A DNA stretch of 64,000 nt from Acidobacteriaceae bacterium (GTDB lineage: Bacteria; Acidobacteriota; Terriglobia; Terriglobales; Acidobacteriaceae): contig PLBY01000161.1 in assembly GCA_003134655.1 (NCBI GenBank), positions 124,001-188,000 of the forward strand. Direction: 5' to 3'. The position numbers and the translations under genes were made by a program. The notes beneath the pieces were generated by a model, which worked only from the letters and a program-made list of their open reading frames with translations, was not told the DNA's origin and searched no databases. Every line of letters begins with the position of its first letter. The stretch's first letter is position 1. Shown piece by piece: positions 32,594 to 35,766 of this stretch.

Positions 32594-33240
32594 TTGGATT
32601 TCGCTCCTTATGGTGAACGAGGGGAGAAACTGGTCCACCCTATTTATCCAATGCACGTAGGTGGCCCTCAGCATCAATGCGCAACCTGTTGCGTCGATAG
32701 GTCAGAAAGCAGGTCCGGCAAGGTGCCTCTGGGGTTCCACCCTGTACTTTCAGAGGAAAACAAGCACAAACGGAGCCGTGACAGTGATTTGCTCGGATGG
32801 TTGGCGAAATATCCCCTATTTCGCTCATTAGAACCACCTTTTGCGGCGGTGGGGTCCGCAAAAGAGGAACTTTCGGGGGCTTAACTTGCTGCCGCTCACG
32901 CTGGCTCTCTTCTCCGAAAAAGGAGGAGTGCAGCAGCGCTTTTTTCTTCTCGATTTTCCAGGGGGGAAGCAAGCGAAAGCGAAAAGCTCAAATACTGCGG
33001 ATGAAGTCCGACATCTTTTCTCGCAGATACTCTGACGGGTCCCGATCTTGATTCTTCATCTGCACCATACGGCGAAGATCGTCATCGCAGAGCACCAGCA
33101 CTCCGCGACTCTGATTGAAGTTCCTGAACAGTGTTCGGTTGTACGCATAAACCCATTTTGGCTGTTCAGACCGACAGACGACGAAGCCCCAGAATCCCAG
33201 AGCGGGCTTTAGGTAGCAGTAAAGCTGACGCAAGTCATCG

Positions 33241-33248
33241 CGAGTCAG
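33241..33248. repeat. Left target site duplication CGAGTCAG
   Basis: Identical to 34990-34997. Confidence 0.92.
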
Positions 33249-33311
33249 GGTAGTGTCCTAACAGTGCGTTGATGACTGGTGGCGGCCTCGGGAAGAAGGG
33301 CCGCCAGTTCG

Positions 33312-33736
33312 TCACGGCTGAGATTCCCAAATATCAGTGAAATTCATCTGAATGGCGGTTTTCTTGAAAACACGGTCAAACTTCTGCCGGAAGTCTTTCA
33401 TGTTCTCGCAGAGCTTCATAATCGTTACGACCTTTTGAATTTGATCGTGGACCTGCGCCCGCCCAAAATCAGTAAGAAGCTGATGGTCATTCTTACCCTT
33501 GCTCGGATCGGGGTTAATTGTTCGCATCGCCTTTCCCATGTCCTTGTCGATGCTGTCGTAGACGAACGCCATAACGTACTTGCCCCAGCGCAGCGGACGA
33601 TTCTTGGGCGAATAGTGGACACCTTCTAATCTCGCCAGTTCAAACCAAAACTCCGGCGGGAACATCTGCGCCCAGTCTTGCATTTCCTCTGCGATGAATG
33701 CTTGCAGTTTGATCTGTAGGGCCCGTTTCTTGCGGA
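33312..33736 (-). pseudogene. P63C domain protein, N-terminally truncated
   Basis: KLQAFIAEEMQDWAQMFPPEFWFELARLEG..GKYVMAFVYDSIDKDM..HHQLLT-like KNDHQLLTDFGRAQVHDQIQKVVTIMKLCENMKDFRQKFDRVFKK. Confidence 0.7.
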
Positions 33737-33963
33737 CCGTCGAACGTCAGAACCTCACGATGCGAATGCAGATGAGACGGCTAACGCGGCTCACGAATGC
33801 GTTCTCGAAAAAGGTGGAGAACCTGAAAGCGGCTGTGGCCCTGCATTTCGCGTGGTATAATTTCGTTAGGGTTCATAAGAGCCTTAAAGTGACCCCGGCT
33901 ATGGAGGCTGGTATTACGAGCCATGTTTGGGGGTTGCAGGACTTGATTCTGCCAAATCAGTAG
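33736..33963 (+). pseudogene. IS1-family transposase, C-terminal fragment
   Basis: TVERQNLTMRMQMRRLTRLTNAFSKKVENLKAAVALHFAWYNFVRVHKSLKVTPAMEAGIT. Confidence 0.9.
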
Positions 33964-34089
33964 ACCCCACTAATTTTATAGACTTTGTAAACTGCTGGCA
34001 CTATGGCTGCTTGCTGGCTTTGCGATTTTGGCCGAATCCTTCCGTCACTTATAAACATCTCAGCTTTGTGGTAGCATCCTAATTTCATT

Positions 34090-34308
34090 ATGGTCAACAG
34101 GCTACAATCCGACTTCCTCACCGCCGACCCTTCCTTCGTGTCCGGTGCGGCTCGACTGCTCGATTGGTGGGGTCTGTACGATACATACAATGTAAGCCGC
34201 AACGGTCAGGAAGCCGATGCGAAGGCCATGTTTTCGGACTGGCGCATTGTAGGGCAAGACCTCGCCGATGCGATGGTAGAATTTGAGTCAGCCCAACCTG
34301 TAAAATAA
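34090..34308 (+). CDS. Hypothetical protein, element passenger
   Basis: MVNRLQSDFLTADPSFVSGAARLLDWWGLYDTYNVSRNGQEADAKAMFSDWRIVGQ. Confidence 0.4.
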   Translation: MVNRLQSDFLTADPSFVSGAARLLDWWGLYDTYNVSRNGQEADAKAMFSDWRIVGQDLADAMVEFESAQPVK

Positions 34309-34321
34309 TGGCTCGCCTACC

Positions 34322-34759
34322 GTGAGTAGCAAACACCGCAATCGTGGCATGACACCTCCATCCAGCACCAGCACGGCCATTATCCAAGCCCAAATGCGTC
34401 AGTGGTCAGGTCCGCTGCCTCAACCTGAGGCTCTGGAACGATACAATCAAATTGTTCCCACAGCGGCCGAACGAATAATCAGAATGGCCGAGACTCAGCA
34501 CGACCATCGCCTCGCCATCGAAAAAGAAGTCGTCGATTCTAATGTAAACAGTCAAAAGTTGGGAACTATTTTAGGCTTCATTATCGCCATGACCGCCATT
34601 GTTGGCGGGATTTTTCTTGCATATGTCGGCAGGGAAACGTCTGGCCTAGTTTCAATCATTACCGCCTTGGTTGGGTTGGCGGGGGTGTTTGTGTACGGGA
34701 AAAGTGAACAAAAGAAAGACCTCGCGAAGAAAACTGAAGCTGTAGTGACTACACGCTAG
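34322..34759 (+). CDS. DUF2335 membrane protein, element passenger
   Basis: SGPLPQPEALERYNQIVPTAAERIIRMAETQHDHRLAIE followed by two TM segments. Confidence 0.8.
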   Translation: MSSKHRNRGMTPPSSTSTAIIQAQMRQWSGPLPQPEALERYNQIVPTAAERIIRMAETQHDHRLAIEKEVVDSNVNSQKLGTILGFIIAMTAIVGGIFLAYVGRETSGLVSIITALVGLAGVFVYGKSEQKKDLAKKTEAVVTTR

Positions 34760-34916
34760 CCCCAATTCTTCAACGCACTCTTAGGACCACTGGTCTTAAG
34801 GCCTCTTCCCCGCCTCTCGCCCCTGAGCTAGATTCTAAGAGTCCCTTTACACACCCTTCCGCCGTGCCCAGATCGGGCGTCGGTCCTCTGTGCAAATTGA
34901 TGAAGAGAACGATTGG

Positions 34917-34959
34917 GCCCAGACTCTGTGCTCCGGGGGGGGACGAGTCTGGGCTTTTT
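34917..34959 (+). terminator. Intrinsic terminator inside right end of the mobile element
   Basis: GCCCAGACTC ... GAGTCTGGGC TTTTT. Confidence 0.8.
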
Positions 34960-34989
34960 CTCGCAGCAACGCACTATTAGGACACTACC

Positions 34990-34997
34990 CGAGTCAG
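34990..34997. repeat. Right target site duplication CGAGTCAG
   Basis: Identical to 33241-33248. Confidence 0.92.
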
Positions 34998-35766
34998 CAC
35001 ACTCTTGTTCTTTGCATCAACAACGATCTCAGATGCGAGGTATTTGTCCTTGAGGTCCTTCCAAAACCCGGAATCAGACTTGTTGCCAAAGAGCAAGTCC
35101 CGTATCTCCACTCCCTCATCCTCGGGTTCCGTGCGGCTCTGCCACCGTCCTTCGCCAAGCTTCTCCACAAATAGGAAGTTAAAGATCACACGCACCCTGT
35201 GTTCGTACTCTCGAAAGTGCTCGATTCCCACGGGTACGGTCGTGCTCAGCGCCTCCACCTCTGTCTGAATCATTTTGCCCCACACGCCAAGTGCTGAGCC
35301 GAGCAGACTCTTTACATCGACATCCGCCTTATCTGGAGTCCACTGATCAGCATGCTGCCCGCCCTTTATGAAGTAGATTGTTCGGCCCTCCCAACCGCCC
35401 ATCGTCTTCTGTGGTTGGTCACGAAGCCCCTCCATGTGTCGATGCTCAAAATGTATCCAGTCTCCCTTAACTACAGACATGCGCGTGAGAAACCCTTCCC
35501 ATGACATACTGTCGTGGATCTCGCGCCGATCATCAGGCACGCCGTCGTACGTCACCAGAATTGCTGTGAGCAGGCCGGGGATTTCGATGATCTCTTGTTT
35601 GTAAAAGTAGTGGGCAAATAATCCCGAGTGGAGCAACTCATTGAACCGGTCGGCGTATTGGTCTGCGAAGTGGGCCATTTCGGTCCATGATACTGGACAG
35701 ATGTTGAGAAATCTCTATAACGCTCATTGACAGATCAGCACAACGCTCCTTAATGCCAGCAAGCAG

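Follow-up and report, generated by a model that had tools for sequence, protein, structure and literature searches.

The locus described here raises the question of what an insertion with clean IS1-like borders, enclosing only a fragment of a transposase together with other genes, was before it lost the rest, and how it reached its present site. The element lies at positions 33249-34989 (1,741 bp) of the window, the 64-kb stretch of soil-acidobacterium DNA that was analysed. It is very probably a non-autonomous internal-deletion derivative of a passenger-gene transposon with an IS1-family transposase.

Borders of the element and the interrupted gene

From left to right the element comprises the left end, remnants of a P63C gene (minus strand) and of a transposase (plus strand, tail only), the cargo genes for a 72-aa protein and a DUF2335 membrane protein, a decayed end, and a tail, with a probable terminator, that leads up to the right end. 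These features and the flanking parts of the target gene are as follows, with the basis of each in brackets.

32988-33240, minus strand: target gene, 3' part (homologue comparison)
33241-33248, no strand: target duplication, left copy, CGAGTCAG (sequence)
33249-33274, plus strand: left terminal inverted repeat, 23-bp core GGTAGTGTCCTAACAGTGCGTTG (sequence, pattern and repeat search)
33312-33731, minus strand: P63C-domain passenger gene, C-terminal remnant (PF10546, 8.9e-13; ORF 33312-33683, homology to 33731)
33732-33737, no strand: deletion junction between the P63C and transposase remnants (limits of the two homologies)
33738-33963, plus strand: single-ORF IS1-type transposase, C-terminal remnant (PF03400; alignment with complete relatives)
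34090-34308, plus strand: 72-aa passenger protein, upstream partner of DUF2335 (dN/dS 0.07 versus L171)
34322-34759, plus strand: DUF2335 membrane protein, 145 aa, passenger gene (PF10097, 3.2e-13; dN/dS 0.10 versus L171)
34771-34793, minus strand: earlier right end, decayed, CAACGCACTCTTAGGACCACTGG (match to the right end in the repeat search; comparison with L171)
34794-34963, no strand: right-hand tail module (sequence; comparison with L067)
34964-34989, minus strand: right terminal inverted repeat (sequence, pattern and repeat search)
34990-34997, no strand: target duplication, right copy, CGAGTCAG (sequence)
34998-35678, minus strand: target gene, 5' part (homologue comparison, PADLOC)

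The borders were read directly from the sequence: CGAGTCAG (33241-33248) adjoins GGTAGTGTCCTAACAGTGCGTTG on the left, and CAACGCACTATTAGGACACTACC adjoins CGAGTCAG (34990-34997) on the right. The initial annotation described inverted repeats of about 24 bp with one mismatch, and the ends are indeed complementary at 22 of 23 positions, or at 24 of 26 over 33249-33274 and 34964-34989. A repeat search with one flanking base added returned inverted ends of 27 nt at 93%. Within the 64-kb window the end pattern, with up to three mismatches, was found at the two element ends only (0.00 in shuffled sequences). The 8-bp duplication is likewise perfect, as had been claimed, with a chance expectation of zero. 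Combined with the GG...TG ends and the IS1-family transposase remnant, it bears out the description of a genuine transposition scar that fits this family. The first 60-70 bp of the element share 83-93% identity with the left ends of four other elements (L051, L059, L042 and L055). The borders do not have the structure of a composite transposon, with cargo between two complete IS copies; each border has one single end.

The element splits one open minus-strand gene, whose first part extends from 35678 to 34998 and whose second part continues to 32988. Its two parts are consecutive and in frame in three uninterrupted homologues (L085, L088 and L089), about 8 residues apart, a spacing that matches the residues across the insertion site once the duplication is counted a single time. 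The uninterrupted allele against which the initial annotation proposed to check the insertion is therefore seen at the protein level. No empty site was found at the DNA level among 45 genomes of the genus, because the target is a rare accessory gene, with any relative in only 8 of 300 genomes of the family. The last ~70 residues before the insertion weakly match the candidate defence family PDC-M36A in PADLOC (3e-7), and an IVVDAKN motif lies within this part, directly before the insertion.

Internal structure of the element

The P63C-domain gene has lost its N-terminal ~215 residues. The remnant has 68% DNA identity with the intact P63C gene of L121 over 33330-33731, and the distance from its stop to the left end is 63 bp, the same as in L042 and L055. 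P63C homology stops at 33731 and transposase homology starts at 33738; therefore, one deletion fused both. Measured against the complete relatives L042 and L051, approximately 1.6 kb would be missing at this junction. An open frame persists in both remnants, suggesting a recent deletion. The transposase remnant matches PF03400 (DDE_Tnp_IS1) at 25.3 bits, against a cut-off of 24.1. Its ~75 C-terminal residues retain the conserved VERxN motif and lack the conserved DE(I/L/M)W and TDG regions. The initial annotation was thus correct that only the C-terminal part of an IS1 transposase is left and that the element is without a complete one. Its picture of a truncated IS1 stands for the transposase remnant and not for the element as a whole, which also contains the P63C remnant and a two-gene cargo.

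The dN/dS values listed for the two cargo genes come from comparison with an element of another genus (L171), and both genes are intact, functional and under purifying selection. In 11 of the 15 further DUF2335 loci inspected, a homologue of the 72-aa gene adjoins the DUF2335 homologue. The pair also occurs in a 1,073-bp element that has the same ends and its own duplication and no complete transposase (L071). An element of ~755 bp from another family of the phylum (L243) holds exactly this pair between its ends and is bordered on both sides by GCAAGGTC, offset by one base. Because of the genes that accompany it, the pair is a putative small conflict or membrane-effector module.

The right side of the element has a history of its own. 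L171 has a transposase tail, the same cargo and an intact right end at the spot equivalent to 34771-34793, whereas the end in use in the window lies 196 bp outside the decayed inner one. Positions 34771-34989 recur at 98% identity in L067 (G355:C398), where they stand behind different, unrelated cargo. The end position in L171 and the match in L067 indicate that the original right end was lost and that the outer end is used instead; the occurrence behind different genes in L067 indicates that the tail has been joined to different cargoes. The tail contains a 10-bp hairpin (GCCCAGACTC/GAGTCTGGGC, 34917-34926/34945-34954) followed by TTTTT, a probable terminator, and gave no Rfam match to an RNA element. 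A ~75-bp sequence at 34827-34903, also without an Rfam match, recurs widely in genomes of the genus, with several of the copies inside other elements of this family (L054, L055, L056, L070 and L079). Duplicated inner ends were considered as a general route of cargo capture and rejected: among 76 elements scanned, one further internal end-like site passed. Double ends are uncommon, and the double right end of the window is a single case, not a rule.

The architecture of the parent can be proposed from L042, L051 and L055, elements of the same GTDB family with the same ends, exact 8-9 bp duplications and the order P63C-transposase-cargo. The parent would have been ~3.3 kb long, with a left end, a P63C gene on the minus strand, a single-ORF IS1-type transposase on the plus strand, the two-gene cargo and a right end. 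It would have inserted into the coding sequence by a DDE-transposase reaction that duplicated 8 bp, and the internal loss of ~1.6 kb would most likely have followed insertion. A parent with intact P63C and transposase genes and the window's cargo in one piece was not found among the relatives examined.

Related elements and the route of mobilisation

Of 398 genomes from the same GTDB family, 80 contain the end pattern (up to two mismatches), often with two ends that face each other at variable spacing. When the pairs were read out, nearly all had exact 8- or 9-bp duplications, and the lengths ranged from 249 bp to 4.4 kb. Many of these elements have a complete single-ORF IS1-type transposase at the centre and genes on both sides. 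Other copies with the same ends and different duplications, named beforehand as a check on the element, were thus found.

A wider scan for related transposases, with one transposase as query and one genome per species, gave 80 loci. The source records are mostly metagenome bins; named sources include Terracidiphilus gabretensis S55 (L129) and three annotated plasmids of named Alphaproteobacteria (L227-L229). According to the record labels, the group is distributed across Acidobacteriota and at least seven further phyla: Pseudomonadota, Thermodesulfobacteriota, Myxococcota, Chloroflexota, Verrucomicrobiota, Zixibacteria and Omnitrophota. An element finder that required inverted ends adjoining an exact duplication, and nothing else, recovered elements in 54 of the 80 loci. 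At a stricter cut-off it recovered 53, with GGTAGTG-type ends, and both controls gave 0 of 80. In all 54 mapped elements, at least 1.0 kb of DNA (median 2.2 kb) lies beyond the transposase match. A distant relative from Deinococcus (29% identical) is a bare IS of 1,138 bp with its own duplication, which shows that not every IS1-type element carries cargo. Since sampling started from one query, the rule that cargo is always present is limited to the sampled group.

The identifiable cargo appears rich in defence or toxin-antitoxin-like genes. Among 144 cargo ORFs, 31 Pfam families were recognised, including ImmA/IrrE peptidases with helix-turn-helix domains, Panacea antitoxins, P63C, DNA methylases and a Tsp45I-type restriction enzyme; the same number of length-matched flank ORFs gave 113, mainly metabolic among those listed (both figures count families, not distinct proteins). 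RmrA, PD-Lambda-2_B and methyltransferase families lead the PADLOC matches in the cargo, whereas matches in the flanks are scattered. Elements of the GTDB family also carry an AbiD-like protein (L057) and two ImmA/IrrE plus Panacea pairs. A protein of ~95-125 aa with a motif around ESVPVxExFxGxTVW recurs in the cargo of 17 elements from several phyla (L100, L103, L121, L125, L129, L147, L157 and ten others), and it corresponds to none of the Pfam or NCBIfam families tallied. It is conceivable, at somewhat less than even confidence, that this phylum-spanning clade of IS1-type transposases is a systematic vehicle for conflict-type modules (ImmA/IrrE regulators, Panacea antitoxins, AbiD, DNA methylases with a restriction enzyme, P63C and DUF2335 pairs). 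The complete elements would be compact unit transposons, cargo would be swapped between shared ends, and modules would also spread as transposase-free cassettes.

Explanations that deny the window element an origin from a passenger-gene transposon fare poorly. A decayed simple IS1, inserted beside unrelated genes or invaded by them, would account for a transposase of which the tail alone remains. However, P63C genes, cargo and ends recur jointly in other elements with different duplications, and each of the 54 mapped elements with related transposases carries its share of other DNA, which makes such a decayed IS1 very improbable. It is scarcely credible that the inverted repeats and the duplication are products of chance or of misassembly. 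The assembly is a draft of 164 contigs, but chance matches are expected at 0.00, the interrupted gene re-forms in frame, and duplications flank the same ends in many independent assemblies.

It is harder to decide when the transposase was lost. The initial annotation presumed mobilisation in trans, in which case the deleted form would predate the insertion and have been moved, as a two-gene mobile insertion cassette, by a complete relative. Elements that have the same ends and exact duplications and that lack a transposase or retain a remnant of one (L071, 1,073 bp; L041, 673 bp; L048, 392 bp; L039, 249 bp) make such movement plausible for the group, as does L243 with the two-gene module alone between its ends. 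For the window copy the evidence leans the other way. Its P63C/transposase junction has no second copy in 398 genomes of the family or 45 of the genus, and its own assembly (99.5% complete, 164 contigs) yielded no intact transposase flanked by matching ends, although the missing helper may reflect incomplete assembly. The one intact relative in this genome, an autonomous element on contig 108 (L236, 332-3507), has perfect 22-bp ends, GGTAGTGCCTCAGTTTGAAATT, that differ from those of the window element, and an 8-bp duplication, GAGATTTT. It encodes a complete 293-aa transposase and a two-gene cargo (a 409-aa HTH-ImmA/IrrE protein, PD-Lambda-2_B-like, and a 162-aa partner). Repeated short deleted copies were tried as proof of trans movement and failed, as the 521-bp deleted element L047 occupies the same site in a second species and is hence inherited; a second full copy of the 392-bp element was absent from nine genomes. 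Cross-mobilisation by a related transposase could occur because the ends of neighbouring subfamilies vary, and the ends of the window element are potentially mobilisable by a cognate transposase. Movement in trans keeps appreciable weight as the less probable course for this copy. We consider, with modest confidence, that the ~1.6 kb was most likely lost in place, after insertion, which is at least as likely as movement in trans; it explains the same facts in fewer steps, and it is preferred because neither a further copy of the junction nor a matching helper was found. A lone end of the window type, possibly a relic, lies on contig 127 of the same genome (L005, 4062-4084), with no partner in the stretch examined.

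Comparison with known systems

IS1 usually serves as the model minimal insertion sequence; in the group described here, every complete copy examined carries passenger genes. Classical IS1 is ~0.77 kb long, uses an insA/insB frameshift and has no cargo. The end consensus of the family is GGnnnTG, single-ORF members are known, and the members of one subgroup reach lengths of up to 4.6 kb. The window element agrees with the family in its ends, which begin GGTAGTG, and in its 8-bp CGAGTCAG duplication (8-9 bp in relatives). The relatives have the DDE_Tnp_IS1 domain (PF03400 at 36.7 bits in the complete L042) and conserve the DE(I/L/M)W, TDG and VERxN motifs; E. coli IS1 proteins match at 2e-7. Most complete relatives have an N-terminal zinc-finger-like and helix-turn-helix region, and public records call their proteins "IS1 family transposase". 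Unlike IS1, the complete relatives lack the programmed insA/insB frameshift and have one continuous ORF of ~290-345 aa; they measure 2.2-5.2 kb and carry passenger genes beside the transposase, either on one side or on both. The window element differs further in having no complete transposase. GGTAGTG... ends with 8-bp duplications provide a simple signature for finding members of this group, which offers a compact, overlooked route for moving defence or toxin-antitoxin-like genes.

IS1-type transposases, transporter IS and mobile insertion cassettes are established concepts (PMC3129680, PMC7986276, PMC9330008). Among the open-access papers covered, none was found to describe an IS1-type group that bears cargo modules of this sort, a weak indication of novelty. 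Transporter IS (tIS; Siguier et al. 2009), in the passages that cite them in PMC3129680 and PMC7986276, combine IS-type ends and a transposase with genes unrelated to transposition. The window element resembles them in its passenger genes (the 72-aa ORF, DUF2335 and the P63C remnant), but its transposase is IS1-type, not IS1595, and has been lost from this copy. Pfam searches returned PF03400 and no IS1595 model for the window remnant (E<=1) or a complete relative (E<=0.01). Mobile insertion cassettes and MITEs have IS ends, no functional transposase and possible mobilisation in trans (PMC3129680). Like a mobile insertion cassette, the window element has IS ends and carried genes and no functional transposase; unlike cassettes and MITEs, it still contains remnants of the transposase and of P63C, fused by a single deletion. 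It thus records cargo kept after transposase loss, and a decayed end replaced by an outer one.
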